Source: Pelomonas sp. Root405 (lineage in GTDB: Bacteria > Pseudomonadota > Gammaproteobacteria > Burkholderiales > Burkholderiaceae_C). Taken from it: a DNA stretch of 64,000 nucleotides. The translations under genes were made by a program, and so were the position numbers. The stretch's first letter is position 1. Every line of letters begins with the position of its first letter. The notes under the pieces were generated by a model, which made no database searches, had not been told where the DNA came from, and saw nothing but the letters and a program-made list of their open reading frames with translations. The stretch spans positions 62,001 through 126,000 of the forward strand of contig NZ_LMDU01000002.1 in assembly GCF_001425165.1 (NCBI RefSeq), given 5' to 3'. Below are positions 4,388 to 62,827 of this stretch, piece by piece.

Positions 4388-4431
4388 GACTTGGTCGCTG
4401 GCCCGGGTTGTGTGATTGACGCGCCGTCGCT

Positions 4432-5325
4432 TCAGCGCGGCGGCAGCAACTTGGAAGGGTCGACAGGCTTGCCGAGTTTGCGCACTTCGAAGTGCAGCTT
4501 GACGGTGTCGCTCTCGGTGGAACCCATCTCGGCAATCCTCTGACCCTTGCGTACCACTTGGTCCTGCTCGACCAGCATCGCCCGGTTGTGGGCATACGCC
4601 GTCAGGTAGGTGTTGTTGTGCTTGATGATGACCAAGTTACCGTAGCCGCGCAACCCCGAACCGGCGTAAACAACGCGTCCGTCGGCGACAGCGAATACCG
4701 GGTCGCCCGGCTTGCCCGCAAAGTCCAGGCCCTTGTTGCGCTGCTCGTCAAAACCGGCACTGACCGGCTGGGACACCGGCCAGGCCCAAGCAAGGCCATC
4801 ATCATCCGTGGCTGCAGCAGTAGCGGGAGCCGGAGCAGTAGTGGTCGCCGTCGAGGGCGCCGATGCGGGCGCGCTCGCCGCGGCCACGGGTGGCTTGGCA
4901 TCCAGCGGGCGTGTTTCGACCTTGGCTGCGCCGGCGACCGGCTTGGCTGTGACGGCACTCGGGTCCACACCCGGCGGCACTACGCGCAGCACTTGGCCGA
5001 CCTCGATGCGGTTCGGGTTTTCGAGGTTGTTCCACTTGGCCACGTCGCGCCAGCTCTGGCCGTTGTCCAGTGCAATGCGGATCAATGCATCACCCGGCTT
5101 GACGGTGTGATAACCCGGCTTGCCCGCGTTTTCTGCACCCGGAAGCGCTGGTTTGGTTTCGACTGCCGACGCGGCCGAAGCTGCGGGTTCCGGTGTGGCC
5201 GGCACAGTGACCTTGGGCGGCTGCGGATTGCGGTCTTCGACCGGAGCGCGTTGCAACGAGGTGCCGCAGGCACTGAGCAGCAGCGCGGTGGTGACTACAA
5301 ATATGAGGCGCAGGCTAGAGGGCAT
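4432..5325 (-). CDS. nlpD: NlpD-like lipoprotein, LysM plus degenerate LytM/M23 domain
   Basis: The start was set at the ATG at 5325 because it opens a lipoprotein signal with lipobox LLSAC; the upstream extension of the frame is not signal-like. After a Pro/Ala-rich linker comes a LysM peptidoglycan-binding domain (GYHTVKPGDALIRIA to VGQVLRVVPPG), a second Ala/Thr-rich linker, and a C-terminal M23 fold. In that fold the zinc ligands are replaced (NKGLDFAG, LHFEVR), as in E. coli NlpD. The protein is therefore probably an activator of an AmiC-type amidase during cell separation and not itself a peptidase. It sits between pcm and rpoS in the classical order. Confidence 0.9.
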   Translation of the reverse strand: MPSSLRLIFVVTTALLLSACGTSLQRAPVEDRNPQPPKVTVPATPEPAASAASAVETKPALPGAENAGKPGYHTVKPGDALIRIALDNGQSWRDVAKWNNLENPNRIEVGQVLRVVPPGVDPSAVTAKPVAGAAKVETRPLDAKPPVAAASAPASAPSTATTTAPAPATAAATDDDGLAWAWPVSQPVSAGFDEQRNKGLDFAGKPGDPVFAVADGRVVYAGSGLRGYGNLVIIKHNNTYLTAYAHNRAMLVEQDQVVRKGQRIAEMGSTESDTVKLHFEVRKLGKPVDPSKLLPPR

Positions 5326-5389
5326 CGTGTGGCGAAGACGCGTTGGGAGGCCGACCCAATTGTGTGGCGCGGTGCGCCGACGACCCCCG

Positions 5390-6193
5390 TCAAACAACGC
5401 CAGATTTTAGGGGAACGAAAAGCACGGCTTCATGTTCGCTGCGCACCCAGCGGCTGACGCCCGCCTCCACAACATGGTCCAACACCACCAGCACTTGGCC
5501 CCGCCCCCTCGCCACGGTCGGCGCAACGAGGCGCCCCCCGGGCGCGAGCTGCTCGGTCCAGGCCGGTGGAATGTCCTCGCCGCCCGCGGCCGCGATGATG
5601 CTGTCGAAAGGACCGCTGGCCGAGTGGCCGATGCGTCCGTCGCCCCAGATGAGGCGCGGCGAACGCGGTAGGACAACGCGCTGCAGATTCAGCTTGGCTT
5701 TGTCATGCAGGGCCTGCAGGCGCTCGACGGATGTGACCTGGCGTGCCAGCATGGCGATGACGGCGGCCTGGTAGCCACAACCCGTGCCGATCTCCAGCAC
5801 GCGGCCCAGCGAGCCGCGCTGGCGCGCGCCGCCGCTGACCATCAGCAAGCCCAGCATGTGGGCGACGACGGAGGGCTTGGAAATCGTCTGGCCATGGCCG
5901 ATGGGCAATGCTGTGTCTTCATAGGCCTGGGCGGCCAGTGCCGTGTCGACAAACTCGTGGCGCGGCACCGCGGCCATCGCGGCCAGCACGCGTTCATCGA
6001 ACTTGCCTTCAGCCCGCAACCGCTCGACCATGCGCTGGCGCACCGCGCCGCCGTCGAGCCCCGTCCCGCTGGGGCGTGACAGCCGCGCCGCATCGACGGT
6101 GGCCTGGTGCAGATGGCGCTGCGGCATCAGCAGCTCGCGCTGCGGCGCAGCGGCCGACTTCAGGCTGGCAGGAAAGCGCTTGGCTGTGGACAT
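5390..6193 (-). CDS. pcm: Protein-L-isoaspartate O-methyltransferase
   Basis: The 267-aa protein carries the family signature TALPIGHGQTISKPSVVAHM and the SAM-binding motif VLEIGTGCGYQAAVIAML, followed by the IWGDGRIGHSASGPFDSII segment. The enzyme methylates isoaspartyl residues in damaged proteins, starting their repair, and acts in the cytoplasm. About 45 N-terminal residues precede the usual core, a length common in betaproteobacteria. The start codon directly abuts the stop codon of surE, so the two are co-transcribed and probably coupled. Confidence 0.93.
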   Translation of the reverse strand: MSTAKRFPASLKSAAAPQRELLMPQRHLHQATVDAARLSRPSGTGLDGGAVRQRMVERLRAEGKFDERVLAAMAAVPRHEFVDTALAAQAYEDTALPIGHGQTISKPSVVAHMLGLLMVSGGARQRGSLGRVLEIGTGCGYQAAVIAMLARQVTSVERLQALHDKAKLNLQRVVLPRSPRLIWGDGRIGHSASGPFDSIIAAAGGEDIPPAWTEQLAPGGRLVAPTVARGRGQVLVVLDHVVEAGVSRWVRSEHEAVLFVPLKSGVV

Positions 6194-6937
6194 TCAGAGC
6201 CCAAGGCGCTGTGTCCAGCAGGCAAGCGATGAATGCTCGGTGAGGTCGACCTGCAGCGGCGTGATCGACACAGCGCCATTGCTCGTCGCATGGAAGTCCG
6301 TACCTTCGCCAGCTTCGCGGGCGTCGCCCGCGGGACCGATCCAGTAGATGGTCTCGCCGCGCGGATTGACCTGCTCGATGATGCCCTCGCTGGAATGCCG
6401 CCGACCCAGGCGCGTGATGCGGCGCGGCAAGGTGTCGGCATCCGGCCGGTTGGGAATGTTGACGTTGAGCAGGAAGGCCTGGCTCAACCCTCCGGCGATG
6501 ACCTGCTCAACCAGGCTGCGTGCCAAGCGGGCTGCGGCCTCCAGTTCGCCCCAGCCCTTCTCGGCCTGCGAGAACGCGATGGACGGGATGCCGAAAAGAT
6601 AGCCCTCAGTCGCCGCCGCCACGGTGCCCGAGTAGAGCGTGTCGTCGCCCATGTTGGCGCCGTTGTTGATGCCGGACAAGACCAGGTCGGGCCGGTAGCC
6701 CAGCAGGCCGGTCAGCGCGAGGTGGACGCCGTCGGACGGCGTGCCGCTGACATAGCGGAAGCCGTTGGCCGCCCGGTAGACGTTCAGCGGCCGGTTCAGT
6801 GTCAGCGAATTGGACGTGCCGCTGGCGTTTTGCTCGGGCGCGATGACGTCGATCTCGCCAAGGCCTTCGCAGGCTTTCACCAAGGCCGCAAGGCCGGGGG
6901 CCAGGTAGCCGTCGTCGTTGGAAATGAGGATGCGCAT
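6194..6937 (-). CDS. surE: 5'/3'-nucleotidase SurE
   Basis: The start was placed at the ATG at 6937, because the protein then begins [16 protein letters not shown], the canonical SurE N-terminus whose DD pair binds the metal. Other motifs are [34 protein letters not shown] with the metal-binding Ser/Asn, and GIPSIAFSQ. At 247 aa the length is normal. It is a stationary-phase survival phosphatase acting on nucleoside monophosphates. It is the first gene of the surE-pcm-nlpD-rpoS cluster, and the divergent promoter region (6938-7030) separates it from the oxidoreductase gene. Confidence 0.94.
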
Positions 6938-7030: not shown

Positions 7031-8008
7031 ATGAAGGCTTGGCTGTGCGACAACCCCACAGGCGTCGAGGCGCTGCAGTGGCGCGAACTGCCGCAACCGG
7101 CGCCTGCTGCAGGTCAGATCCGCGTCCAGATCAAGGCGGCCAGCTTGAACTTCCCGGACTTGCTGATCGTCCAGAACAAATATCAAATGAAACCGGCCCT
7201 GCCCTTCGTGCCGGGCACCGAGTTCTCCGGCGTCGTCACGGAACTCGGCGAAGGCGTCAAGGGTTTCGCGGTCGGCCAGCGCATCGCCGCGTTTGGTGGT
7301 TTGGGCGGCTTCGCTACGGAGGTCTGCATCCCGGCCATGCTCGCCATGCCCTTGCCGGATGCCTTCAGCTTTGAGGACGCGGCCGCCTTCATCTGCACCT
7401 ATGCCACCAGCCATCACGCGCTGATGGACCGCGCAGCGCTGCGCGCCGGTGAGACGGTGTTGATCCTGGGTGCTGCCGGCGGTGTCGGCACGGCTGCCAT
7501 CCAGATCGCCAAAGCCGCGGGGGCGCGCGTCATTGCGGCAGCGGGCAGCGACGCCAAGTGCGAAGCCTGCAAAGCGCTGGGCGCGGATGCGGCCATCAAC
7601 TACACGACCCAAAACCTGCGTGACGAATTGAAGTCGTTGACTCAAGGCAAGGGGCCCGACGTCATTTACGACCCCGTCGGCGGCGACCTCGCTGAAGCCG
7701 CCTTCCGTTCCATTGCCTGGCGCGGCCGCTATCTGGTCATCGGCTTTGCGCAAGGGGCCATTCCGGCATTGCCGCTCAATCTCGCGCTGCTCAAGGGCGC
7801 ATCCATCGTCGGCGTGTTCTGGGGCGAATTCGCCAAGCGCGAGCCAGGCCCTAACGCCAAGATGCTGGGAGAACTCGCCGCCTGGTACACGGCCGGCAAG
7901 ATCAAGCCCGTGATCGACCGCGTGCTGCCCATGGAGGAACTGCCCGCCGCCTTCGCGCGCATGGCTGCCCGCGAGGTCGTCGGCAAGTTGGTTCTTACCA
8001 ATCCTTGA
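7031..8008 (+). CDS. NADPH:quinone oxidoreductase family protein (zinc-free MDR)
   Basis: The protein is a medium-chain dehydrogenase/reductase with the nucleotide-binding motif LILGAAGGVGTAAIQIAKAAGA and a catalytic-domain start QIRVQIKAASLNFPDLL. It has no structural zinc cysteines, which places it with the Qor-type quinone reductases. The ATG at 7031 is preceded by GGAGACG at good spacing, so it is preferred over the GTG at 7019; this gives 325 aa. It is monocistronic between surE and the response regulator. The real substrate could be a quinone, an enone or an acyl derivative, and sequence does not decide. Confidence 0.85.
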   Translation: MKAWLCDNPTGVEALQWRELPQPAPAAGQIRVQIKAASLNFPDLLIVQNKYQMKPALPFVPGTEFSGVVTELGEGVKGFAVGQRIAAFGGLGGFATEVCIPAMLAMPLPDAFSFEDAAAFICTYATSHHALMDRAALRAGETVLILGAAGGVGTAAIQIAKAAGARVIAAAGSDAKCEACKALGADAAINYTTQNLRDELKSLTQGKGPDVIYDPVGGDLAEAAFRSIAWRGRYLVIGFAQGAIPALPLNLALLKGASIVGVFWGEFAKREPGPNAKMLGELAAWYTAGKIKPVIDRVLPMEELPAAFARMAAREVVGKLVLTNP

Positions 8009-8107
8009 AGCCTGAACCGGGGGCGTGAGCCGCCGTGATATCCCTGAGCTCCTAGGGGGCGGTGCGCTACATTCGACGGTCGAAACGACAGCCGCCCGCC
8101 TCGCGCC

Positions 8108-8851
8108 ATGACCGTCAAAGTTCTCATCATCGAAGACAACCCTGTCGCCCGCAGCTTCTTGTGCCGCGTGGTGCGAGAGAGCTTCAGCGACGCCATGGAG
8201 ATCACCGAAGTCGGCGATCTTGAGAACGCCCGCCGCCAGGCCGCCAAGCTGTCAGGCGGCAACCCGGAGATCAGCTTCAAGCTCATCCTCGTCGACCTTG
8301 AACTGCCCGATGGCAACGGCATGGAGTTCCTGACCGAGATGGCCGGCTCACCGGCGATCAAGATCGTCACCACGCTGTACTCGGACGACGACCACCTTTT
8401 CCCAGCCCTGCAGTGCGGCGCAGACGGCTACCTGCTGAAGGAAGACCGGTTCGAGGTGTTGGTGGAAGAGCTCCAGCGCATCGTTCGCGGTCAACCGCCC
8501 CTGTCGCCCGCCATTGCGCGCCGCCTGCTGTCGCACTTCCGCCCCAGCACCAGCGACAGCGGCACGATGCCGCTGAACTCCGGCTTCGGCACCTTGTCGT
8601 CGTCGCATGCGCCCTTTGCCAACAGCCGCGGTGTCGCCTTGGACCCGCCGCCTGAGTGGGAACGCCTGACACCGCGCGAGAGCGAGGTGCTGACCTATCT
8701 GAGCAAGGGCTTCACGATCAAGGAGATCGCGAACCTGATGGGCATCAAATGGTTCACCGTCAACGACCACATCAAGAGCATCTACAAGAAGCTCAACGTA
8801 TCGAGTCGCGCTGAGGCCGCGGTGTTGGCAAGCAAGCAGGGCCTCGTCTAG
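8108..8851 (+). CDS. Orphan response regulator, NarL/FixJ type with LuxR-like DNA-binding domain
   Basis: The 247-aa protein has an N-terminal receiver domain (VKVLIIEDNPVARSF; probable phospho-acceptor Asp in LILVDLELPDGNG; conserved Lys in GYLLKED). A roughly 45-residue Ser/Pro linker follows, then a GerE/LuxR helix-turn-helix (LTPRESEVLTYLSKGFTIKE through VNDHIKSIYKKLNV). No histidine kinase lies next to it, so its partner is elsewhere. It is followed by a hairpin terminator and is probably transcribed alone. Confidence 0.87.
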   Translation: MTVKVLIIEDNPVARSFLCRVVRESFSDAMEITEVGDLENARRQAAKLSGGNPEISFKLILVDLELPDGNGMEFLTEMAGSPAIKIVTTLYSDDDHLFPALQCGADGYLLKEDRFEVLVEELQRIVRGQPPLSPAIARRLLSHFRPSTSDSGTMPLNSGFGTLSSSHAPFANSRGVALDPPPEWERLTPRESEVLTYLSKGFTIKEIANLMGIKWFTVNDHIKSIYKKLNVSSRAEAAVLASKQGLV

Positions 8852-8877
8852 GTAGCGGCCCACCCACCGCTTCTGTC

Positions 8878-8909
8878 CAAGGCCTCGTCGAGTACGGGGC
8901 CTTGTTGTT
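8878..8909 (+). terminator. Probable Rho-independent terminator of the response regulator gene
   Basis: A 10-bp stem with one G-T pair (8878-8887 with 8895-8904), a 7-nt loop and a following TTGTTA lie 26 bp after the stop codon. Confidence 0.55.
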
Positions 8910-8974
8910 AGCGGACCTCGCAGAGCGCGGGGGGAAGGCGCAGCGGCGGTGCCAACTGCGCCTTCTGGACTGCG

Positions 8975-9523
8975 TCAGACCGCCGAGCGCAGCTTTACAG
9001 CGGGGAAATCGACCGGCACTGCAAACGCGACGTTCACGTAGTTCGTGAACAGGTTCAATGCGACATGAGCCAGGATTTCGACGATCTGGCCATCATCGAA
9101 ACCAGCCGCTTTCAGCGCTGCAATGTCCGCGTCACCCACCTGGCCGCGTTGCTCCACAAGCTTCAACGCAAACTGCAGCGCTGCTAACGTTGCGGGATCA
9201 GCGGACTGACCGGCTTGTGCTGCGCTCATCTCGGCCGGCGATGCGCCCGCCTTGCGGCCCAATGCGGTGTGCGCAGCCAGGCAGTATTCGCAGGCGTTGC
9301 GGTCGGCGACGGCGACGGCGATCTGCTCGCCCAGCTTCGCCGGGATGCGGCCCGCGCCAAGGGCGCCGAAGCATGCCCACATCGCCTGCAGCGCGGCGGG
9401 TGAATTCGCAACGGCGCGGAACATATTGGGCGTTGCGCCAAAGGCGCCGTGCACGGCGTCGAGCAGTGCACGGCTGCCGGCGGGAGCGTCGGCAAAAGAA
9501 ACGAGGGGAACTCGGGCGGTCAT
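8975..9523 (-). CDS. Carboxymuconolactone decarboxylase / AhpD-like family protein
   Basis: The preferred start is the ATG at 9523, with AAAGGTG upstream, giving 182 aa. The protein shows the AhpD-type redox motif ACEYCLAAHTALGR (CxxC followed by His) inside an all-helical fold, and an alpha-helical tail AGFDDGQIVEILAHVALNLF. Such proteins act as peroxidase or thiol-redox enzymes, or as decarboxylases when the cysteines are absent. Here both cysteines are present, so a peroxidatic role is likelier. It is transcribed divergently from an AraC-family regulator, with repeated sequence elements between them, which suggests that regulator controls it. Confidence 0.85.
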   Translation of the reverse strand: MTARVPLVSFADAPAGSRALLDAVHGAFGATPNMFRAVANSPAALQAMWACFGALGAGRIPAKLGEQIAVAVADRNACEYCLAAHTALGRKAGASPAEMSAAQAGQSADPATLAALQFALKLVEQRGQVGDADIAALKAAGFDDGQIVEILAHVALNLFTNYVNVAFAVPVDFPAVKLRSAV

Positions 9524-9550
9524 GGCGTCACCTTTCGGTTGCAGTGGAAA

Positions 9551-9598
9551 GGACGCCACTGTGCCGCCTAGTGCCGCACGATAAGTATCATGGCGTCC
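9551..9598. promoter_or_regulatory. Candidate AraC-type operator between the AhpD-like and AraC genes
   Basis: Two nested patterns are visible. GGACGCCA (9551-9558) and TGGCGTCC (9591-9598) form a perfect 8-bp inverted repeat. Inside it GTGCCGC occurs twice (9561-9567 and 9571-9577) exactly 10 bp apart. Direct half-sites on one face of the helix are typical of AraC-family binding. The site lies within the 97-bp divergent intergenic region. Confidence 0.5.
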
Positions 9599-9620
9599 AT
9601 CTTTTATATCCAATCGTCCC

Positions 9621-10484
9621 ATGCCCGACGACCATCCGCTGGACCGCCTCAGTCCGATGTTTGAACGCCTGCGCTTGCGGGCCAGCCTCTTCCATACCGG
9701 TCCGCTGTGCGGGGTGACCCATTTCGACGCACGTCCGGGCCGCGGGTTCCTGCATGTGATGCGCAATGGCGAGATGCAGGTGCGGCACGCCGCCGCGACA
9801 GGCATGGTTGAACAGCTGTGGGTGCGGGAGCCCAGCCTCGTGTTCTACCCACGGCCCCTCGCCCACGACTTCCACAACGCACCCACCGAAGGGTCGGACT
9901 TCGTCTGCGCAACGGTGGACTTCGACCAAGGCGAGGGGCACCCGCTTGTGCAGGCGCTGCCACCCCTCGTGGTGCTGCCTCTGGACCGCGTTGAAGGAAT
10001 CGCTGCGACGCTGTCGCTGTTGTTCGGCGAAGCCGAACGCGTGCGCTGCGGCCAGCGCCTGCTGGCCGACCGGCTCTTCGAGGTGCTGCTGCTACAGCTG
10101 CTCCGCTGGATGCTGGATCAGCGCGACGCACCGCTGCCCGTCGGCCTGCTGCGGGGTCTGGCGGACACCCGGCTGGCACGTTCCCTGACCGCCCTGCATG
10201 CACGGCCCGGCGAGGCCTGGAGCTTGGCCCGCATGGCCGCCGAGGCGGGCATGTCACGCAGCCGCTTCGCTGAAGCCTTTCGCGACGCGGTGGGACAGCC
10301 GCCGGCCGACTATCTCGCGCAATGGCGGCTGATGATCGCGCGCGCCGAATTGCGCGCCGGCAAACCCATGAAACAGCTCGCCGCCGAATTGGGCTACGCG
10401 AACGCATCCGCATTGAGCCGCCTGTTCGCGCAACGACACGGGGGCCTGTCGCCACGCGCCTGGTTGAACGGCCCCGTCGCCTGA
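9621..10484 (+). CDS. AraC-family transcriptional regulator with cupin ligand domain
   Basis: The 287-aa protein has an N-terminal cupin-like sensor (about residues 10-180; CGVTHFDARPGRGFLHVM, FYPRPLAHDFHN). The C-terminal part is a double helix-turn-helix (WSLARMAAEAGMSRSRFAEA, then KPMKQLAAELGYANASALSR) ending LSPRAWLNG. It resembles regulators in the AraC_binding_2/cupin_6 group that usually control a neighbouring redox or detoxification gene. The divergent AhpD-like gene is the obvious target. The inducer is unknown. Confidence 0.88.
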   Translation: MPDDHPLDRLSPMFERLRLRASLFHTGPLCGVTHFDARPGRGFLHVMRNGEMQVRHAAATGMVEQLWVREPSLVFYPRPLAHDFHNAPTEGSDFVCATVDFDQGEGHPLVQALPPLVVLPLDRVEGIAATLSLLFGEAERVRCGQRLLADRLFEVLLLQLLRWMLDQRDAPLPVGLLRGLADTRLARSLTALHARPGEAWSLARMAAEAGMSRSRFAEAFRDAVGQPPADYLAQWRLMIARAELRAGKPMKQLAAELGYANASALSRLFAQRHGGLSPRAWLNGPVA

Positions 10485-36536: not shown

Positions 36537-39500
36537 TTAGGTCACACGGGGACCGGGTTCCGACAGGGCGCGCAGCAGCGGCTGCAACAGCCGGTTGACC
36601 TCGGTCAACGGCGGCGCGATGACGGCATCGTCGACACCCTGTGCACACGCCGCTTCCAGCGCCGCCGCGGCCTGCTGCAAGGCTTGCATGCCCAGCGTGC
36701 CGGCAACGCTCTTCAGGTCGTGGGCACTGCGCAGGGCAGCCCCCGCGTCGCCGCGGGCGCAGGCCTCCCGCATGCGCGCCGCAAAGTCGACCTCCCGCTC
36801 GCGGAACATGCCGAGTAGCCGCCGGTACAAGGCCTCGTTGCCGTCCACCGCCGCAAGGCCGGCGCTGAGGTCCAGGCCCGACGCGGACGGCAGGGGCTGG
36901 CGTTCGGGCTGCGCCAACGCCGGGCGTACCCAGTGCGCCAGTGTCGCGAACAGCTCGTCCACGCGAAAAGGCTTGGCGACATGGTCGTTCATGCCTGCCG
37001 CCAGCACCTTCTCGCGGTCACCGGCCATCGCGTTGGCGGTCATCGCGATGACGGGCAGCTCCTTGAGCGCGGGACGCTGGCGCAGCGCGCGTGTGGCCTC
37101 GTAGCCATCCATCACCGGCATCTGGCAGTCCATCAGCACGGCATCAAAACGCTGGCTGTCCAGCGCGGCGAGCGCTTCGCGGCCGTGGCCGGCGATGGTG
37201 ACGACGATGCCCACACGCTCCATCAGGCTGCAGGCCAATTCTTGGTTGATCGCGTTGTCTTCGACGAGCAGGATGCGCGCGCCGGCCAGGCTGGCCTGGT
37301 GCGCGTGCAGCTTCTCCTGCCGCTGTTCGCTGCGGCGTGGCAGCGCCGCCTTCACGCCCAGCGCCGTGACGCAGGCGTCGAGCAGGGCCGACGGCGTGAC
37401 GGGCTTGGGCAGCAGGGCCGCCACCTGCAGGCCGCGCGCCAGCAGCTGGCGCTCGGCCTGGTCGCGGCTGAAGGCGGTGACCATCAGCACCGTCGGCGGC
37501 GCGTGGCGGCCGGCCATGGCGGCCAGCCGCGCCAGGCACTCGACGCCGTCCATGCCGGGCATGCGCCAGTCCAGCAGCACCAGCTTGAAGGGGCGGTCGG
37601 CGGCATCGGCATTCGCCACGGCCGCCAGGGCCGCCTCGCCATCGGCCGCCACCTCGGCATTCAAGCCCAGCGAGGCCACCAGGGCGCACAGCAGCTCACG
37701 CGCCGCCGGGTGGTCGTCGACGATAAGCAGCCGGGTACCGCGCAGTTCTGTCGTGTCCAGCACCGGCTGCGCCCCAGGCTGCAGCTCGAAAGGCAAGCTG
37801 AAGTGGAAGCTGCTGCCGCGCGAGGGCTCGCTGTCCACCCAAATCCGGCCGCCCATGCGCTCGACGAGGTGGCGGCAGATTGCAAGGCCCAGGCCCGTGC
37901 CGCCAAAACGCCGGCTGGTCGATGCATCGGCCTGCGTGAAGGGCTGGAACAGGCGCTCGCAGGCCTCGTGGCTCAGGCCGATACCGGTGTCGCGCACCTC
38001 GAAGCCCAGCGTCGCGCGCCGGCCGACGCGCTCGGCCAGCGACACCGCCACGGTCACCTCGCCGCGCTCGGTGAACTTGATGCCGTTGTTGACCAGGTTC
38101 AGCAGGATCTGGCCCAGCCGCGAGGGGTCGCCGACCAGCCCGGTGGGCAGCTCGGCCGGCAGCATGAACAGCAGCTCCAGCCCCTTCTCCTCGGCCGGCA
38201 TGCCCACCAGGTTGGCCAGTTGGTCGAACACGTCACCCAGCTGGAAAGGGATGGTCTCCACTTCCAGCTTGCCGGCCTCGATCTTCGAGAAGTCCAGGAT
38301 GTCGTTGATGATGCCCAGCAGCGACTCGGCCGCGCGGTGCACCTTCTCGACGTAGTTGCGCTGCTTGGCGTCCAGCCCGGTCTGCAGCGCCAGGTAGGAC
38401 ATGCCGAGGATGGCGTTCATCGGTGTGCGGATCTCGTGGCTCATGTTGGCCAGGAACTCGCTCTTGGCCTGCGTCGCGGCCTCGGCGGCGTGCTGGGCGC
38501 GCTCCAGCTGGCCAGTGCGTTCGTGCACGCGCTGCTCCAACGTGTTGGCCAGGCGGCGCACCTCGGTGCGCGAGCGGCGCAGCCGCACGAGGAAGAACAC
38601 CGTGCCGACCAGCGCGAGCATGCTGCCGGCCAGCACCGTCCACAGCCAACGCTCCTGCAGCTCCCGGGTCTGCAGCTCAGTGGCCTGCTGCTGGCCACGG
38701 CGCTGCAGCTCGGCCAGCTCGCGCTGGCGCGCCTCGTCGCGGCGGCGCTGTGCGGCCTCCAGCAGGCGCTCGGCGCTGCGCTCGGTGCTGGCACGCGCCT
38801 GCATGTCGGCGGCGTCGATGGCCAGCCGGTAGGCGCGCTGAATGTCACCCGCGGCCGCCTGCAGCTGCGCGAGCCGGCGCGCGGCGCTGGCAATGTAGAG
38901 CGGCTGCCCGAGTGCGAGTGACTCGGCATAGGCGTCCTCGGCCTCGGCCAGCGCCGCCGCAGAATGCCCCAGCGCCTCTTGGATGCGACTGCGTTGCTGG
39001 GCACCATGGAAGCGGCCGGCGCGCAACTGCGTCGTGGCGAGGATGGCGCGCGTGCGGTCACTTTCGGCCAGCGCCTCCTGCAGCCGCCCCTGGTTCAGCA
39101 GTTGCTCGGCATGGTTGTGCAAGGCGTTGGCAAGATTCACCGGCGTCGCCACCGCAGTGAAGGCGGCGATGGCCTGGGCGACCAAGCGCTCGCCCTCGCC
39201 ATGGTCCTTGCGCCGGTGGGCCTCGTTGGACAGGCCGAGCAGCGCGAACCCTTCCTGCAGCTTGGAGCCGGCGGCCAGGGACTGCCGGCGCATCTGCTCC
39301 AGCTGCTCGCCCGCTTCGACGAAGCGCTCGCTCTGCATATAGGACACGGCCAGGCCGTGGTGGGCATAGGCCAGTGCCAGCGTGTCGCCCGAGCGCTGTG
39401 CGGCGTCCATGGACTGCAAGGCCATCGTGGCCGACTCCTCGAACCGGCCGACGCGGCGCAGCACCAAGGCGCCGCGGAACAGGGCCTCGGCCAGCAGGTC

Positions 39501-39941
39501 GGGCCGGTCGACCCCGTCCAGCACGGCGATGCTGTGCGAGGTGACCTCGACGAGGCGCTCCACATGGTTGAGGTTGACCGCGCCCAACGACAGGTTCATG
39601 TCGGCCTCGGCCTGGCCGGGGCGATCATTGGCCGCGGTGGCCTCGCGCATCGCCTGCTCGGCGCGCGCGACGGCTTCCGCCGAGCGGCCGAGGTGGATCT
39701 CGATGCGTGCCAGCAGGTTCAGCACCCGCGCGCGGTCTGCGGCCGGCGCATCGGGCGGCAGCTCGGCCTGCAGGCGCTGCGCCTGCACGTAGGACGCCGG
39801 CGCGTCGTTGTCGGCCAGCTTGCGCACGGCGGTGGCGCGCTGGCGCCAGTCGTCAATGGGCGCGGCCACGGCGAGCGTCAGCAACAGCAGCAGCAGCCAG
39901 GCTGCGGCGGCTGCGCCCCATCGCAAGCCGCGCAGCCTCAT
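36537..39941 (-). CDS. Hybrid histidine kinase with periplasmic TPR sensor, two receivers and Hpt
   Basis: The 1134-aa protein has a signal peptide or anchor (residues 1-27), about 400 residues of helical TPR-like repeats predicted to be periplasmic, one membrane helix near 432-453 ([19 protein letters not shown]) and a coiled-coil. The kinase core follows: H-box [19 protein letters not shown] (His near 501), N-box [14 protein letters not shown]1 VRDTGIGLS and G2 [13 protein letters not shown]. Two receiver domains follow (Asp in [11 protein letters not shown] and [14 protein letters not shown]), then an Hpt domain with [14 protein letters not shown]. There is no DNA-binding domain. Its ATG overlaps the stop of the TonB receptor gene (ATGA), so the two are made together. 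The partner response regulator is not visible nearby. Confidence 0.93.
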
Positions 39942-42538
39942 ATGCGCAGGCTCAGGCTGGTGCCAAGCTGGCGGTCATTCACCCAGGCGTTCTGCGGTCG
40001 GGTCTCGACGCCGAAATGGGAGCGCCGCAGCGTGCCCAGCAGGTTGCCGCCGTCGAGCGACCAGGTCAGCTCGTCGGTGATGCGCCAGCGCAGCGAGGCA
40101 TCCAGCCAGCCATAGGCGCGCGTGGTCGTCTGCAGTGCACCCAGCCCCACGACGCTGACCGTGCCGCTCGGGAAGCTGCTGCGCCAGTTCCACGCCAGCC
40201 GCGCCGACCAGGCGCCGTGCTCGTACAGGCCGACGAGGTTGGCACTGCGGCGCGACAGGTTCTGCATCGCCACAGTGGAGCGCAGCGCGCGGTCGTAGGT
40301 GCTGCTGTCGACGAAGGTGGCGTTGGCCTGCAGCCCGAGGCCGCGCCAGGCACCGGGTAAAAAGTCGAGGAAGCGCTGGTAGGACAGCTCCGCGCCCCGG
40401 ATGCGGCCGGCGTCGGCGTTGTACGGGCGGTTGACTTGGTAGAGCTGGCCGTCATGCGTCTCCGCCTGGCTGCGCGTGGCAATGAAGCCGTCCACGCGTT
40501 TCCAGAACAGCGTCACCGAAGCGGCATGGCCGGCGCCGAAATTGCCTTCAGCGGCCAGGTCGGCATTCGTCGCCCGCAGCGGCCGCAGCGCCGGGTTGCC
40601 GGCCGTGCCCTGGTTGAGCTGAGGGTTGATGCTGTTCGGCGTCAGCGTGATGGATGGCGACAGCAGGTTGAAGTCGGGCCGCGTGATCGTGCGCGAGGCG
40701 GCCGCACGCAGCTGCCAGGGCCCGCCGGCACGCCAGCGCAGGTTGGCGCTGGGCAGCCAGTCGGTCGTCGTCGTGTCGATGGCCAGCGGCGCGACCGTGC
40801 CGGTGGAAGGCACGCTCTGGTTGCCCGACAGCGTGGCGCGCGTGCGCACCAGGCGCAAGCCGGCCTGGCCGTCCAGGGCCAGCGCCGGCAGCTTCCAGCC
40901 CGCCTCGCCATAGGCGGCGTCGGTAGCTTCGCGGATGTGCCACACGCCCAGCGGCCCGCCCGCCGTGGGCAGCGGCGTGGTGATGCCAAAAGCCGCGCGC
41001 GCCGCCACCGGGTCGCGGGCGTCGGCCAGCGTGTCGGTGAGATAACCCTCGATGCTGCTTGTGCGGCCATCGAGCAAGGGCGAGTAGGGGTAGACGGCCG
41101 TGCGGCCCGGCTGGGTGGCCGCTGGCGTACCCGGCACCGCAATGTCGCCAAAGATCAGGTTGGGCGCGTTGTCGGCCTCGCGGCGCGCATGGCGCCAGCC
41201 GATGGCCACGCGCTCCAGCAGGCCGTTTTCCGGCTGCCACTCGGCGTCGCCCCGGCCCGCGAGCAGGCTGCCACGCAACGGCCGCACCCGGTAGGCCATG
41301 GACACATAGCGCAGGTTGGCCGGGTTGGCGAGGTCCGTGCCCGCGACCGATGTGGCCGGCACCGCGCCCGCCACGTCGTGCGTGAAGCGGGCTGCGGTAG
41401 CGGCCAGCGTGGGGCCGGCGAAGAACAGGCGGTTGAGGCTGCGCGTGTGGCTGAGGTCGGCGCTCAGCCGCAGCTCGCCTTGCGACCACGCGCCACCGGC
41501 AGCCAGCTGGCGCGTGCGGTCGATGGTGTCGCGCGCAAAGCCGAGGATGGAGACTGGCGCGTTCGTCCACGTGATGCGCTGCACGTCGCGCGTGCCGGTG
41601 AAAAGGGTGACGCTGGCGGGTTCGAAGCCGCTGCCGGCCGCGAAGTTGGGGCCGATGTTGAGCTGCTGCGTGTCCTGCCTCGTCTTCAGCTCCGCGAAGT
41701 GCGCCTCGGCGTAGAGATCGAGGGCGGCGTCGGGGCGCCAGCCCAGCATCAGGCTGGCCGCGCTGCGGCGGCGCCGGCCGAGGTTGGCGCTCTCGCTGCT
41801 GCTGCTCGGCGCGACGGTGTCTTCGCCGGGCACCAGGTCCAGCCGGCAGCCCGACGCGGCGCGCGCGCTGCACAGCATCGGCGAGCCGGTGCTCTTCTGG
41901 TCTTCGCGGTAGGCCCGGTCCTGCAGCACCAGGTTCACCAGCAGCGCCGTCTCGCCCACCGCGGTGGCCGCACCGCCGCCGTAGAGCAGCGCGAACTGGC
42001 CGGCGCCGCGGCCGACGAGATCGCCGTGCAGATGGCGCGCCGACAACGCCAGCATGGGCTGGCGGAAATCGAACGGGCGGCGCGTGCGCAGGTCCACCGT
42101 GCCGCCCAGCCCGCCCTCGATGCGCGAGGCCGCCGAGGTCTTGTAGACATCGATGCCGGCCAGCATGTCGCTCGGCAAGTCGGCGTAGTCCAGCGCCCGG
42201 CCGAAGCCGGCGGTGAACAGCTCACGGCCGTTCAGCGTGGTCTCGATCTGACCCAGCCCACGCACCGTGGCCACCGAAGCCTCGCCGCGGTCGCGCGTGA
42301 TCTGCACGCCAGTGATGCGCTGCACCGCGTCGGCCACGCTGAGGTCGGGCAGGCGGTTGATCTCCTGCGCCAGGATGCCGTCGACGATGTCGGCGCTGCT
42401 GCGTTTGCGCTCGGCGGCGGATTCGACGCTGGCCCGCACGCCGATGACGACAACGGGTTCGAGCTTCTGCGCCGACATCGCAGCAGGCGCCAGCAGGGCA
42501 AGGCTGGCGGCTGGCATGACCAGGCCGATCTGCTTCAT
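39938..42538 (-). CDS. TonB-dependent outer membrane receptor
   Basis: The 866-aa protein has a signal peptide (cleavage near AAMSA), a TonB-box-like start ([12 protein letters not shown]), a complete plug ([57 protein letters not shown]) and a long barrel ending [11 protein letters not shown]. It belongs to the TIGR01782-type (Caulobacter/Xanthomonas) receptors often linked to carbohydrate or other organic substrates, with no FecA-style signalling domain. The substrate is unknown. It is translationally coupled to the hybrid kinase and divergent from a lipoprotein hydrolase. Confidence 0.92.
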
Positions 42539-45537: not shown

Positions 45538-47451
45538 TCAGCTCGGCGACAAGCCCGGCCCATACCCGTCCAGCTTGAGCTGCTTCAACAGCGCCAGGAA
45601 GCGCGGCTGCTCGCGCAGCCCGGTCCAGCGCGGGTCGTCCTTCAGGAACACCAGCTGCGTGTCCCGCGCGGCATGGGCGCGCTCCAGCGCGTCGAGCGCC
45701 AGCGTCGTTTCACCCAAGGCGTTGTGCAGCACGGCCAGCGAGATCGGTGGCACGAACTGATGGCTTGACCGTTGCAGCAGCCGCGCCAGGATCCCGCGGG
45801 CCTCGGCTGAGTGGCCCAGGCGGGCCAGGTGCATGCCCAGCAATGCCTGAGGCCGGCTGTTGCCGCCGGCTTGCTCGGCGGTGCGCCGCAGCGCCGCAAG
45901 GGCCAGGTCGGGTTGGCCGTCGGCCAGATGCAGCAGGGCCTGGGTGCGGTGGGCCAGGTAGAAATCCGGCGCGATGTCGAAGGCCCGTTGCAGGCGCGAG
46001 CGCGCGGCCTCGCGCTGGCCGCGCGCCAGCAGGTAGCCGGCTTCCAGCGTGTTGAGGAAAGGCGACATCGGGTCCAGCTCGCGCGCCGTGCGCAGGTGCT
46101 GCATGCCTTCGTCGGGCCGGTCCTGCGTCAGCAGCAGCTGGGCTAGGCCGAAGTGGGCCATGGCCACATTGGGGTTCACCGCCAGCGCGCGCCGGAAGCC
46201 ACGCTCGGCGCCGGGCCAGTCGAAGTCGAAGTAGTAGAGGCTGAAGCCCTGCTCGGACAGCGCGGCCGCCAGGTCGGGTGCAAGTGCGAGCGCGCGCTGC
46301 ACGGCCTGCTTGGCGGGCTGGAAGACATCGCTGGGCGGCGCGTCGGCGGCGAGCAGGGTTTCACGCAGGGCCTCGGCCAGGCCGACATGGGCCAGCGCGT
46401 AGCCGGGGTCCGCCTGCAGCGCCTGGCCGAACAGCGCGATGCTCTTGCGCAGGCTGTCGCCGCGGCGCGCCTGCGCATGCCGCGTGGCGGCCTGGTAGAA
46501 CTCGTAGGCGTCGGTGTTGCGGGTGCCGCCGAGCGGCTTGGCCGGCAGGCCGGTGGCCGCGCCGCCGCCGGCCTGCAGGCGGGGTGCCAGCGCCTGCAGC
46601 ACGCGGGCGGAGATCTGGTCCTGCATGTCGAAGACGCCGGTGAACTGCGCGTCGAAGCTGTCGCTCCAGCCCGCGCTGCCGTCGCTGGCGCGCAGCAGGC
46701 GGGCGCTGACGCGCAGCTGGCTGCCGCGCCTCTGCAGCGAGCCGTCGACGATCCAGTCCACGTCCAGCTCGCGCGCCGCGCGCACCGGGTCCTGCTCGCT
46801 GCCGGCGTAACGCCGCACGGAGCCCACCGAGCGCACCACCAGCCCCGGCACCAGCGACAGGCGTGTGATGAGGCTGTCGGCCATGCCCAGCTCCAGCAAC
46901 TCGTCGCGGCTTTCGGCGGCCAACGGCTTGAAGGGCAGCACGGCCAGCGTGACGCGGCCGGAAGGCTCGTTGACGGCCGGCGCTGGACGGCGCAGCCACC
47001 ACCATGCGCCGGTCAAAGCGACGGCAGCGCCGCCAGCCAGCGCCCAGCGCCGCGCCGGTTGGCGTGTCGCAACAATCGCTGGCGCTGCTGGCGGTGCGGG
47101 CGGTGCGGGCGGCGGCACGGCGTCGTCCAGCACCGTCACCGGAGCAATGAAACGGAAGCCGCGTCGAGGCACGGTCTGGATGTACCGGCTGCCCGCCGGC
47201 TCGTCGCCCAAAGCGCGCCTCAGGCTGGAGATGGTCTGGCTGAGGTTGTTCTCTTCCACCACCAGGCCGGGCCACAGCTCGCGCATCAGCCGATCCTTGT
47301 CCAGCAGCGTGTCCGGGTGGTCGACCAACAGCTGCAGCGCGCTGAACAGGCGCGGCGTCAGGACCAGCTCGGTGCCGTCACGCTGCAGCACGCGCTGCTG
47401 GGACCGCTGCAGCACGAAATCGCCAAAGGCAAGGAGTTCGGGCGCAGGCAT
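45538..47451 (-). CDS. CadC-like membrane transcriptional regulator with TPR domain
   Basis: The 637-aa protein starts with an OmpR/PhoB winged helix ([20 protein letters not shown], then [17 protein letters not shown] and [16 protein letters not shown]). One membrane helix follows ([17 protein letters not shown], near residue 140), then a TolB/FlgO-like segment ([20 protein letters not shown] to [19 protein letters not shown]) and C-terminal TPR repeats. It is a one-component regulator reading envelope conditions directly. It is divergent from the cytochrome gene, its likely target. A 129-bp intergenic region separates them. Confidence 0.87.
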
Positions 47452-59035: not shown

Positions 59036-62000
59036 GTGAACAAGTTCAGCAAGCCTGCGGTGGTAACCGCTGTTTCGATGGCCCTGGCCCTGTGGAGCCA
59101 ACAGGCTACCGCCCAGCAAGGCACGCCTGCCGCTCCCGAGGCCGCCAAGGCCGATGAAGCCAAGCCCGCGGCGCGCAAACCCACCGCCCCGGTGCAGGAA
59201 CTCGAAACCGTGCTGGTCGTCGGCACGCGGCAGTCGCAGCAGTCGGCCAATGCGCGCAAGAAGAACGCCGCCACCGCCCAGGACTCCATCGTGGCCGAGG
59301 ACGTCGGCGCTTTCCCCGACCGCAACATCGGCGAAGCCATCTCCCGCATCGCCGGCGTCGCGCTGGACCGCGGTGACTACGGCGAGGGCGTCACCGTCTC
59401 CATCCGCGGCAACAGCTCGGAACTGACCCGCGTGGAATTGGACGGCATGGGCGTGAGTTCCGGCGCCGGCACCAACCTGCTGGGCCGGGGCGCCGAAGGC
59501 GGCGACGGCCGCGGCACCGAGTTCCGCGAACTGCCGTCGGACCTCATCAAGAGCGTCGACGTCATCAAGGGCTCGACCGCGGCCATGACGGAAGGTTCGC
59601 TGGGCGGCGGCATCATCATCCAGACCCGCACCGGCCTGGACTTCGACAAGCCTTACTACATGATCAAGGCCGAGGCCACGCAGAGCGACCTCGTCAAGAA
59701 GACCACGCCTCGCTACAACGTGATCCTGGCCGACAAGTTCTTCGACAAGAAGCTGGGCGTGCTGTTCAACTGGAGCAAGGGACGCACGGTGAGCCAGAAC
59801 CATGCGATCTCGCAGGGCGGCAGCAACAACAACCAGGGTTTGCTGCGTCTGGCCGACTTCGACAACTCGCCCGAGAAGACGTTTGCGTTCAACCCGAACA
59901 CGCTGAACCAGTCCGACCCGACCGCGCTGGCGACGCTGCTGGCCTCGCCCAAGACGACCGCCGCCGGTGGCGGCTTCTTCAATGCCGCCACGCCGCTGGA
60001 AATTCTCACCAAGTCGGCCGCCGCCCAGACGAAGGAGGCCTGCTTCACCGCCTTCCCCAATCTGACACCCACGGAGATCGCCTCCATCCAGGCGGGCACG
60101 CGCAACGCGACCATCAATGCCGCGATCAACCAGCGCAACTCAGAGCAGATGACCTGCCTGAACCAGTGGAACGACTACCACATGTCCAACGCCGGTGGCA
60201 TCCGCTACAACTTGAAGGGCCAGGATGACCGCCGCGACAACGCCGACATCCGCTTCGACTTCAAGGTCAACGACAAGCTGACCGTCTACACCAAGCTGGC
60301 CGCCGCCAAGCGCCATGTGGACGACACGGTGGGCTTCCTGGGCGTGGGCAGCACGCCACTGTTCAACTCCGCCGTCACCGACAACCTCACCACCGGCATC
60401 CGCACATTGACGCCAGGCGCCTCCGGCAGCACCCTGGCGAGCACCTATTCCTTTCCGCTGGCCACGGCCAACAACGGTGTGACGCGGCCGCTGATGTCCG
60501 GCGCGATGACCACCATCCTGCCGGGCTACACCGTCGATTCGGCGCACCATGTGACCAACTACTCGGTGGACGGCGGCAGCTACAACACCGACACCATCTT
60601 CAGCACGATCGACACCGACACGAAGACGCTGCTTGCCGGTGGCGAATACAACGATGGCCGGCTGAAGGCCCAGTTCATGGGGGGCTACGTCAAGTCCACC
60701 GCCACGCGCCACGACCGTCGCGCCTCGTTCGGCTACAACTACGGCATCGGCAACTTCGCCCTCCAGCCCAACGGCATCTGGGCCTTCACGCTGCCTGAGG
60801 GCAGCCAGAACGATCAGCTGAACTTCGCGAGGTACGCAACGCTGAACCCGGCCATCGCTGGCGCGGCGTTCAACGCTTCCGCGACCAATCCGGTGAGCGT
60901 GCCGGCCTACACGGCCGCTCAGATGCCGCGTTACACCAACAGCGCGCTGTTGAACGTCATCCGGTCCTTCGACAGCGAGAACTCCGAGAAGCAGGGCAAG
61001 CTCGACCTGTCCTACAACCTCCTCGACAAGGTGCCCTTCCTGACCGCGCTGAAGGGCGGCGTCCAGATGCGCCAGAACGCCAGCAACTTCTGGAACGGTG
61101 GCGGCGGCACCATCAAGGAGCCCGTGGGAACTTACGGCACGGCCGGCTTCGTGCCCGGCGTCTACATGCCGCAGGTCAACACGCGCTTCACCCTCGTCGG
61201 TTGCGAGAACACGCCCGGCTCCCTGGCCGCCGGCGGCAACCCGTGCGCGCCGTACGGCTACGTGCCCAGCAACCAGCTCAACCGCGGTATCGGCGGCGGC
61301 GTGGCGGGCACCACCACGCTGACCCGCGCGCAGTACGAAGAGATCATCCGCCAGACGATGACGCTGGCGCCGGCCAGCCAGTACTACGCCAACGCCAAGG
61401 ACCGGCCCGAATCGCTGCTGAACGGCTGGAACCAGATCGACATCGACAAGCTCTTCAACCTGGCCGGTGTTCCGGTGCGCCTGGACTGCTTCCGCCAGTG
61501 CACGGCCACCGACGGCAAGGTCTACGACATGCCGGTCAGCAGCGCCAAGGAAACGGTGACGGCCGCCTACCTGATGACCGATTTCGAGGTCGACCGCGTG
61601 CCGTTCACGAACTGGTCCCTGCCTTTCGGCATGGAAATCGCCGGCAATTTCGGCGTGCGCGTCGTGAAGACGGACGTGGAAGGCACGGGCTACGTAACCA
61701 TCCGCTCGAACCGCATCATCGCGGGCTCGTTCAACCCGGCAAATCCTTACGCCGCCGCGGGCCTGCAGGCCTACTCGCAGACCATGAACACGTCCATCAA
61801 GGACAGCACCACCGATGTGATGCCCTCGCTGAACCTGGCGCTGTGGCCCATCCCGGACAAGTTGGCGCTGCGCTACAGCGTCGGCAAGACCGTCGCACGC
61901 CCGCCGATCTCGAAGCTGCTGCCCGAAGGGACCTGCAACACGTATGAGTTCGCCACGGGAACCACGGAAGATGACGGCTCGGAAACTGACCAGGGTTGCG

Positions 62001-62827
62001 GCCGTTTCGGCAACCCGGCTCTCAAGCCCCAGACCAACGTCAACCACAACCTGTCGCTGGAATGGTTCCCCAACCGCGACACGCTGTTCTCGGCCGCTGT
62101 CTACAAGCAGCGCGGCCTGATCGGCGCGCCGACGCTGATCGCATCGCGCAACGACGTCAGGCTGTTCAAGGACAGCGCCGCCCTGGACCCCTTCACCGGA
62201 AAGCCGCTGGCCGAGTCGGAGTTCTCGCACACCACCTGGGACAACCAGCCAGCCGCCACCCGCAGGGGCTTCGAGGTCGGCATGAAGACCGCGTTCTCCT
62301 TCCTGCCCTGGGTTCTGCGCTACACGGGCCTCGACGCCAACTTCACCAAGGCCAAGTCCACCCAGGGCCAGCCGGTGCTGGACCTGATCAGCGGCGACGT
62401 GATGCCGGTCGCGGGCGAGCCCAAGCACTCGTGGAATGCCTCGCTGTGGTACGACGACGGCGGCTTCCAGGCGCGCGTGGCGATGCAGGTGGTGGCCAAG
62501 CGCTACCTGGGTTTCACGCCGGGCGCGAGCAACAGCGCCATCGCCGTCAACAACTACCCATCTGTCGGCACCATTAACTGGCGCCTGCCTTACAACCCGG
62601 GCGCGCCGATCTTTGCTCCGCGCACGGCCTTCGTCGATGCCAAGGTCTCCTACAAGTTCAAGAACGGCCTGGAGATCTTTGCCGACGCGCGCAACCTGAC
62701 CGGTGAGCGCGGGCAGTCGAACACGGGCGGCTACCAGGACTACGCAGACGGCATCCCGAACATCTACAGCGACAACTACAACGGCCGCCGCTACACGATC
62801 GGCTTCACGCTGCGCAGCCCGCGCTAA
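59036..62827 (+). CDS. Large TonB-dependent receptor (TIGR01782-like)
   Basis: The start is a GTG at 59036 with GGAGAGAG upstream, giving 1263 aa and a signal peptide (cleavage near ATAQQ). An Ala/Pro/Lys-rich linker and a TonB-box-like stretch (ELETVLVVGTRQS) lead to the plug (FPDRNIGEAISRIAGVALDR, SIRGNSSELTRVELDGMG, GSLGGGIIIQTRTGLDFDKP). The barrel is unusually long, with several large loops of 70-200 residues and pairs of Cys (for example GCENTPGSLAAGGNPC). It ends TIGFTLRSPR, without the usual C-terminal aromatic residue. The substrate is unknown. A Sel1-repeat gene follows 18 bp later with its own ribosome site. Confidence 0.9.
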   Translation: MNKFSKPAVVTAVSMALALWSQQATAQQGTPAAPEAAKADEAKPAARKPTAPVQELETVLVVGTRQSQQSANARKKNAATAQDSIVAEDVGAFPDRNIGEAISRIAGVALDRGDYGEGVTVSIRGNSSELTRVELDGMGVSSGAGTNLLGRGAEGGDGRGTEFRELPSDLIKSVDVIKGSTAAMTEGSLGGGIIIQTRTGLDFDKPYYMIKAEATQSDLVKKTTPRYNVILADKFFDKKLGVLFNWSKGRTVSQNHAISQGGSNNNQGLLRLADFDNSPEKTFAFNPNTLNQSDPTALATLLASPKTTAAGGGFFNAATPLEILTKSAAAQTKEACFTAFPNLTPTEIASIQAGTRNATINAAINQRNSEQMTCLNQWNDYHMSNAGGIRYNLKGQDDRRDNADIRFDFKVNDKLTVYTKLAAAKRHVDDTVGFLGVGSTPLFNSAVTDNLTTGIRTLTPGASGSTLASTYSFPLATANNGVTRPLMSGAMTTILPGYTVDSAHHVTNYSVDGGSYNTDTIFSTIDTDTKTLLAGGEYNDGRLKAQFMGGYVKSTATRHDRRASFGYNYGIGNFALQPNGIWAFTLPEGSQNDQLNFARYATLNPAIAGAAFNASATNPVSVPAYTAAQMPRYTNSALLNVIRSFDSENSEKQGKLDLSYNLLDKVPFLTALKGGVQMRQNASNFWNGGGGTIKEPVGTYGTAGFVPGVYMPQVNTRFTLVGCENTPGSLAAGGNPCAPYGYVPSNQLNRGIGGGVAGTTTLTRAQYEEIIRQTMTLAPASQYYANAKDRPESLLNGWNQIDIDKLFNLAGVPVRLDCFRQCTATDGKVYDMPVSSAKETVTAAYLMTDFEVDRVPFTNWSLPFGMEIAGNFGVRVVKTDVEGTGYVTIRSNRIIAGSFNPANPYAAAGLQAYSQTMNTSIKDSTTDVMPSLNLALWPIPDKLALRYSVGKTVARPPISKLLPEGTCNTYEFATGTTEDDGSETDQGCGRFGNPALKPQTNVNHNLSLEWFPNRDTLFSAAVYKQRGLIGAPTLIASRNDVRLFKDSAALDPFTGKPLAESEFSHTTWDNQPAATRRGFEVGMKTAFSFLPWVLRYTGLDANFTKAKSTQGQPVLDLISGDVMPVAGEPKHSWNASLWYDDGGFQARVAMQVVAKRYLGFTPGASNSAIAVNNYPSVGTINWRLPYNPGAPIFAPRTAFVDAKVSYKFKNGLEIFADARNLTGERGQSNTGGYQDYADGIPNIYSDNYNGRRYTIGFTLRSPR

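Follow-up and report, generated by a model that had tools for sequence, protein, structure and literature searches.

The 64,000-nucleotide stretch of Pelomonas sp. Root405 DNA analyzed here (contig NZ_LMDU01000002.1, positions 62,001 to 126,000; hereafter the window) carries a gene for a TonB-dependent receptor directly followed by a gene for a hybrid histidine kinase with an extracytoplasmic sensor of tetratricopeptide repeats (TPR). Our analysis demonstrated that this gene pair, including the predicted topology of the sensor, also occurs in other bacteria, that both genes are found together in genomes, that the paired receptors belong to a single clade and that the sensor proteins differ in their output domains. 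On balance we lean towards the interpretation that receptor and sensor constitute a cassette for the import of a specific compound, its reading by the TPR domain and the transfer of this information to a phosphorelay, with the receptor serving mainly for sensing. The TonB-dependent receptor would take up a specific outside compound, and the energised uptake would deliver it to the periplasm, where the TPR solenoid of the partner kinase would bind it. The resulting change would travel down a long helix and across the membrane to the kinase, from which, in the window protein, the phosphoryl group may pass from H502 to a receiver, on to H1074 of the Hpt domain and from there to an unlinked response regulator, both the order and the target being putative. 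The main role of such a receptor would be sensing rather than feeding, and the output part would differ by lineage.

Co-occurrence of the two genes was evident from searches at several taxonomic levels, in which scoring in the large genome draws was confined to the 2 to 11 best candidates of each genome, so that some members may have been missed. The sensor was detected in six of 200 family genomes, and close relatives of the receptor (E below 1e-250) were present in the same six of the 200, adjacent to the sensor in every case; a seventh family genome (G030) gave a receptor match of 1.5e-103 with 34% identity that falls outside the paired clade. Within the genus, four of 20 genomes contained the sensor, all four with the pair, and in the draw from the order each gene was found in the genome of the window only (1/399 each). 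A draw from the family of Methylobacter tundripaludum yielded the receptor in five of 151 genomes and the sensor in eight of 151, including those five, and all five receptor genomes carry the sensor on the same strand within approximately 250 bases. One of the five (G757) shows a partial receptor match of about 250 residues with an internal stop on what was taken to be the same contig as locus L044, a Methylobacter metagenome-assembled genome (MAG) in which positions 5996-6838 encode a 280-residue receptor remnant beside the sensor kinase. This remnant retains the start and a TonB-box-like region followed by the late barrel and is devoid of the plug and the early barrel, possibly as a result of receptor loss or of an assembly error. 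In all 11 genomes with a receptor in the receptor-first searches (six from the family and five from the Methylobacter draw, one of them with the partial remnant), the receptor therefore adjoins a sensor.

Scanning genome contigs with an alignment of the sensor provided 30 sensor loci from Roseateles, Pelomonas, Rhizobacter, Methylibium, Aquabacterium, Ideonella, Piscinibacter, Duganella, Pseudoduganella, Azoarcus, Novimethylophilus, Methylotenera, Methylobacter and less precisely named MAGs. A receptor relative lies directly upstream of the sensor kinase in 17 of these loci (L044 with its remnant included) and downstream of it in three, all from Duganella and two of them with a regulator in between, while one locus (L050) has a divergent receptor of only 34% identity. 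The receptor is not adjacent in seven loci (L042, L047, L048, L053, L062, L063 and L068), and its position could not be determined at contig ends in two (L064 and L067); a receptor search of 16 genomes located it elsewhere in the same genome for L042, L062, L063, L064 and L067. The receptor gene of Pseudoduganella rivuli is situated at a contig break, with its 3' part directly upstream of a second sensor kinase.

A preliminary description of the window had emphasized that the receptor stop and the kinase start share an ATGA, and this is indeed what the sequence reads: plus strand positions 39938-39941 are TCAT, i.e. ATGA on the minus strand, with the receptor TGA at 39940-39938 and the kinase ATG at 39941-39939. 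Among the 18 loci with a receptor directly upstream (17 of the scan and the window), such a 4-base overlap was found in four (window, L039, L054 and L059), and a 1-base overlap in one (L057), whereas in the remaining 13 the two genes are 2 to 440 bases apart; a 4-base overlap occurred once more in reversed gene order (L066). An overlap limited to one or two genomes, which the description had named as the outcome that would refute its reading, was thus not what the genome search returned. However, with spacings from -4 to 440 bases the overlap did not hold up as a conserved trait; what is conserved is the pair.

Phylogenetic analysis of 52 receptors (20 from sensor-bearing genomes, the L050 receptor, 25 others from the genome of the window and six from other genomes) grouped the 20 as a single clade (support 100/100), to which the L050 receptor is sister (99/94). 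Nineteen of the 20 clade members are adjacent to a sensor, the exception being L094 from Pseudoduganella namucuonensis. As a control, all but one of the 25 other receptors found in the genome of the window were inspected (more distant receptors not counted), and 0 of these 24 genes have a kinase gene directly beside them; one of them, L115, has a receiver and a kinase gene on the opposite strand, one gene away. These conservation counts together with the control receptors indicate that the pairing is more than chance. A neighbourhood inherited without a functional link is very improbable in our estimation: although the loci are few and partly related (L060 and L061 are near-copies, and Roseateles, Pelomonas and Rhizobacter form a group), the pair is present in Burkholderiales, Azoarcus, Novimethylophilus and Methylobacter, its surroundings differ among them and its order is even reversed in Duganella, and the adjacency in all receptor-first genomes likewise argues against it.

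The sensor was earlier described as about 400 residues of TPR-like repeats. The Pfam TPR_12 match to the window kinase is weak (8e-5, 23.2 bits, below the Pfam cut-off of 30.1), whereas relatives of the sensor exceed this cut-off, and an AlphaFold2 model built from 29 aligned sequences shows a regular TPR solenoid of 17 helices with a 40-residue period (mean pLDDT 91.5) that runs into one long helix including the membrane span. The structure model and the relatives above the cut-off settle the TPR character; the length needed correction, since the repeats cover approximately 335 residues and are followed by the long juxtamembrane helix. Hydropathy analysis revealed a hydrophobic N-terminus and a single membrane helix at about residues 432-455, and both elements are present in 28 of the 30 loci, the two exceptions being L067, which is truncated by the contig, and L068, where the check failed to anchor. 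Since the kinase core must be cytoplasmic and a single membrane helix separates it from the region behind the hydrophobic start, the predicted topology should place the repeats in the periplasm, as had been proposed, irrespective of whether the signal is cleaved. Conservation within the solenoid is highest on the first helices of repeats 2-5, those of repeats 2-4 carrying polar residues. Polar positions conserved to at least 85% in the 29 sequences are D43, N49, R53, E55, Q84, E86, N97, E126, R130 and R137 (add 26 for kinase numbering) in the first helices of repeats 2-4, which are perhaps a candidate ligand-binding face. Fold matches to the model were TPR solenoids, led by LGN complexes with the better E-values, and Rap proteins with peptides were among them (4gyo_A, TM score 0.69 by target and 0.57 by query; 4i9c_A, 0.66). 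The sensor kinase of the Methylococcaceae MAG locus L068 (4730-8206) seems to lack the greater part of its TPR region, from the start to the membrane helix.

Signal transfer might also proceed by direct contact, with the solenoid gripping the TonB-box tail, the plug or the periplasmic turns of the receptor and passing its ligand state to the kinase, similar to FecA and FecR but into a phosphorelay. Tight adjacency and a single receptor clade would be expected for such partners, and peptide-bound TPR solenoids are among the fold matches. To locate residues characteristic of paired receptors, the 260 positions that are 90% conserved among the 20 receptors of the clade were compared with unpaired receptors, in which 59 of them are rare. 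The share of these special positions is 0/3 for the N-terminal tail, 3/53 for the plug (tail and plug together 3/56) and 56/204 for the barrel. Within the barrel they are concentrated in the extracellular half and loops (49/141) compared to the periplasmic half and turns (7/60; Fisher p 0.0009), the halves being assigned from the strand direction in an AlphaFold2 model and our reading of the outward end; of the conserved positions in the periplasmic turns 0 of 5 are special. The plug is poorly modelled (pLDDT under 50 for residues 40-58, 75-104 and 112-153). We read this pattern, which derives from aligned sequences and a model, as the probable mark of a common outside ligand rather than of a special periplasmic contact, even though the TPR domain could read some generic feature of the TonB box or plug that leaves no clade-specific mark. 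The distance matrices of receptors and sensors are correlated with an r of 0.40 in 20 pairs (1 of 5000 permutations as high in one run and 0 of 5000 in another), of 0.82 in the 19 pairs without L050 and of 0.74 in 14 pairs when near-copies are also removed (0/5000 each). As proof of contact this correlation was rejected, as it follows from shared descent too, and the inclusion of L050, whose sensor has a different receptor, lowers it. Given also the sensors in genomes without a detected receptor, a contact-based mechanism appears unlikely, and the earlier idea of a TPR domain touching the receptor plug was not sustained in that form. Since the special residues are mainly extracellular and sensors exist in genomes without a detected receptor, import and subsequent reading fit the data better than obligate contact, and we favour them over a plug-TPR interaction.

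Several observations weigh against an import-and-read cassette with a dedicated receptor. Three of the eight sensor genomes in the Methylobacter-family draw (G609, G713 and G716) have no detected receptor; for G713 the absence is probably real and not an assembly gap, since this genome is nearly a single contig (4.8 of 4.9 Mb). The receptor was likewise undetected in four of 16 searched sensor genomes (L047, L048, L053 and L068, all of them MAGs, G609 among them), and the sensor can therefore work without this receptor. Moreover, the receptor of P. namucuonensis is not beside the sensor, and in L050 a sensor of the common type lies divergent from a different receptor (4087-6654 and 7037-10213; 34-35% identity), which suggests partner exchange. 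At several other loci the pair is surrounded by regulators that the window lacks, so the window is perhaps atypical. Finally, the lack of recurring transport genes described below fits sensing, but would equally fit an import that is finished elsewhere.

The output part of the sensor proteins, determined by Pfam for 14 of them and by BLAST for the rest, varies considerably. The HisKA-HATPase-REC-REC-Hpt arrangement of the window is shared by L040 and occurs with an added PAS domain in L058 and L065, while other sensors have PAS-HK-REC (L045, L051, L052, L056 and L060), PAS-HK (L043 and L054), GAF/PAS-HisKA_3 (L063 and L067) or PAS-GAF-GGDEF-EAL (L062) outputs. The sensor tree as drawn implies seven changes of output type, although many of its forks are weak and the well-supported branches force fewer. 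Three genomes have the pair and an extra sensor with a different output: Methylibium rhizosphaerae (L049 and L042, two hybrid kinase types), Roseateles caseinilyticus (L039 and L063, a hybrid kinase and a HisKA_3 kinase) and P. rivuli (L095 and L062, a kinase and a GGDEF-EAL protein), which raises in a directly testable way the question of whether one receptor has several readers. With considerable reserve, one might go further and regard these receptors as a class of TonB receptors for perception instead of nutrition, each serving a periplasmic TPR reader and some of them two, possibly by direct contact.

Among the regulators encoded next to other pairs are REC-GGDEF-EAL, REC-PAS-HisKA_3 and LuxR-type proteins. 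Within 4 kb, GGDEF or EAL domains were counted at 12 of 30 loci (the fused domain of L062 included) and in 2 of 24 control regions (p 0.012), LuxR-type regulators at 9 of 30 and 0 of 24 (p 0.003), and chemoreceptors at 5 of 30 and 0 of 24 (p 0.06); these counts were made by hand, with control regions from one genome and with partly related loci, including the near-copies L060 and L061. Around the window pair itself BLAST revealed no response regulator over a distance of 4 kb; LuxR-type and GGDEF-EAL regulators are located near the pair in other lineages. Cyclic di-GMP signalling and chemotaxis were dropped as candidate outputs of the window, as none of these genes is located within 4 kb of its pair. 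In both L062 and L063, in which the sensor has no adjacent receptor, Pfam detected a downstream CheA (Hpt, H-kinase_dim, HATPase and CheW); a STAS protein is encoded in L063, and chemoreceptors were found by BLAST in these surroundings.

Clustering of 225 neighbouring proteins from 30 loci (here the window plus 29, with L061 left out) by single linkage with coverage limits resulted in five groups with members at three loci or more, i.e. the sensor with other signalling proteins (two members unlabelled), the receptor, receivers and LuxR regulators, chemoreceptors, and one further family confined to three Methylobacter loci; four families occur in exactly two loci. No enzyme or transporter family recurs beside the pair across genera among the clustered neighbours, families in two loci or fewer not being followed. 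Since the receptor is kept with the sensor and no such family accompanies them, the receptor would serve mainly sensing and not feeding. Attempts to derive the ligand from the neighbourhood were abandoned, as nothing recurs across genera (about 30 neighbouring genes were scanned with Pfam, most neighbours were not). The only sugar enzyme among the scanned neighbours is a GH115 glycosidase encoded upstream of the pair in Roseateles cellulosilyticus (L038, 713-3604). Solved structures were dropped as a source for the ligand as well, because no match to the receptor sequence was found in the PDB at E 0.001.

Textbook TonB-receptor signalling is that of FecA and FecR. The window pair differs from the FecA-FecR-FecI system in that the receptor is devoid of an STN domain and the partner is a kinase instead of an anti-sigma factor. 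More generally, in cell-surface signalling an outer-membrane TonB receptor is coupled to an inner-membrane protein by which the state of the receptor is relayed, as outlined in PMC2729926. Closer counterparts are pfeA-pfeRS and pirA-pirRS of Pseudomonas aeruginosa and peuA-peuRS of Vibrio parahaemolyticus, in which a TonB receptor gene is located beside a two-component system answering the compound of this receptor, according to PMC9426570 and PMC4141801. The likeness to PfeRS-PfeA lies in the kinase gene directly beside the TonB receptor gene. In contrast, systems of the PfeRS and PeuRS kind have a separate adjacent response regulator, which is missing within 4 kb in the window and present at some other loci, and PeuS has a 115-residue loop, whereas here a TPR solenoid is carried by a hybrid kinase, the receptor is of the TIGR01782 type and the outputs differ among relatives. 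From its sequence, the pair thus appears to belong to a broad known kind, a TonB receptor beside a two-component system, as a variant of it.

The known pairs also lend weight to a simpler explanation, namely that the kinase senses an unrelated periplasmic cue, such as a ligand or the envelope state, and is co-transcribed with the receptor to control or match its expression. Sensors without an adjacent receptor agree with such a role. However, varied outputs such as HisKA_3 and GGDEF-EAL are ill-suited to a regulator of one operon, and other signalling genes are found near many loci. The former objection is weakened by the restriction of the HisKA_3 and GGDEF-EAL forms to sensors without an adjacent receptor or at a contig end (GGDEF-EAL and one HisKA_3 form only in the former), and overall we judge ordinary receptor regulation to be improbable, though not strongly so. 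A related case is the VgrS-VgrR system of Xanthomonas campestris, in which a kinase system controls a TonB receptor gene, tdvA; VgrS binds ferric iron via an ExxE motif, and the substrate of tdvA is called unknown by the authors (PMC5231390). There tdvA is a regulated target, in which it differs from the window receptor.

With respect to its kinase core, the window protein has HisKA, HATPase, receiver and Hpt domains in common with hybrid kinases of the BarA/ArcB/TorS type and differs from them by its TPR sensor and two receivers. BarA (NF008318) is its best NCBIfam model, but with 474.3 bits against a cut-off of 890 it is not BarA itself. Hybrid two-component systems beside SusC/SusD in Bacteroidota represent another link between a hybrid sensor and outer-membrane import; in contrast to these, the window kinase has no DNA-binding domain and neither direct neighbour of the pair is SusD-like. 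Searching by title and abstract start, which was thin on subscription journals, we did not find a published description of this receptor-kinase pair. The carriers are some soil, water and methane-eating bacteria, for which the pair suggests a device that detects one particular chemical outside the cell and reports it to changeable outputs in its interior. If this holds true, the conserved receptor-TPR kinase cassette would represent a second, phosphorelay-based route of TonB-receptor signalling in culturable bacteria, and receptor and sensor would provide a natural biosensor pair and a route to the ligands.

The features of the pair are compiled in Table 1; gene calls and start codons are those of our own codon-usage script. 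With 571.8 bits against a cut-off of 310, the receptor is a member of the TIGR01782 family. The Pfam scan reported the plug and barrel families alone and no FecA-type STN domain, in agreement with the preliminary description, and among the direct neighbours of the pair, to which this inspection was confined without a genome-wide FecR search, there is no FecR or extracytoplasmic function (ECF) sigma factor gene. The kinase, with a single sensor copy in its genome, carries the full set of a tripartite hybrid kinase (HisKA, HATPase, receiver and Hpt domains with their phospho-sites), and as described before it has two receivers and an Hpt domain but no output domain.

Table 1. Features of the receptor and kinase genes (window positions; residues refer to the respective protein)
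Feature	Positions	Strand	Basis
TonB-dependent receptor, 866 residues, TIGR01782 (TonB-Xanth-Caul) subfamily, no STN signalling domain	39938..42538	-	Pfam/NCBIfam
Receptor plug domain, residues 45-146	42101..42406	-	Pfam PF07715
Receptor barrel, residues ~162-865, read as 22 strands	39944..42055	-	AlphaFold2 model, our strand assignment; PF00593 in part
ATGA overlap, receptor stop TGA and kinase start ATG	39938..39941	-	sequence
Hybrid histidine kinase, 1134 residues, extracytoplasmic TPR sensor	36537..39941	-	
Signal sequence, kinase residues 1-27	39861..39941	-	hydropathy; cleavage inferred
Predicted periplasmic TPR solenoid, ~8 repeats of 40 residues, residues ~29-363	38853..39857	-	AlphaFold2 model and conserved family
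Long juxtamembrane helix, kinase residues ~367-431	38649..38843	-	AlphaFold2 model and conserved positions
Single membrane helix, residues ~434-454, then RLRRSR	38580..38642	-	hydropathy
HisKA dimerisation/phosphoacceptor domain, residues 492-557, H502	38271..38468	-	Pfam; motif
HATPase_c, residues 604-719	37785..38132	-	Pfam
Receiver 1, residues ~738-857 (limits ours), D791	37371..37730	-	two Response_reg stretches counted; motif
Receiver 2, residues 890-1001, D938	36939..37274	-	Pfam; motif
Hpt domain, residues 1041-1108, H1074	36618..36821	-	Pfam; motif

The direct neighbour on the far side of the receptor from the kinase is a beta-lactamase-family gene (PF00144; 42732-43886, plus strand), which is divergent from the receptor gene and has the upstream region in common with it. 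Further along the window, a minus-strand gene at 45538-47451 encodes a protein that combines TPR repeats with a DNA-binding domain of the Trans_reg_C type. A second, far longer TonB-dependent receptor of about 1249 residues (our call), distant in the tree from the paired receptor, is encoded on the plus strand at 59078-62827 and is followed by an open reading frame from 62847 to the end of the window.

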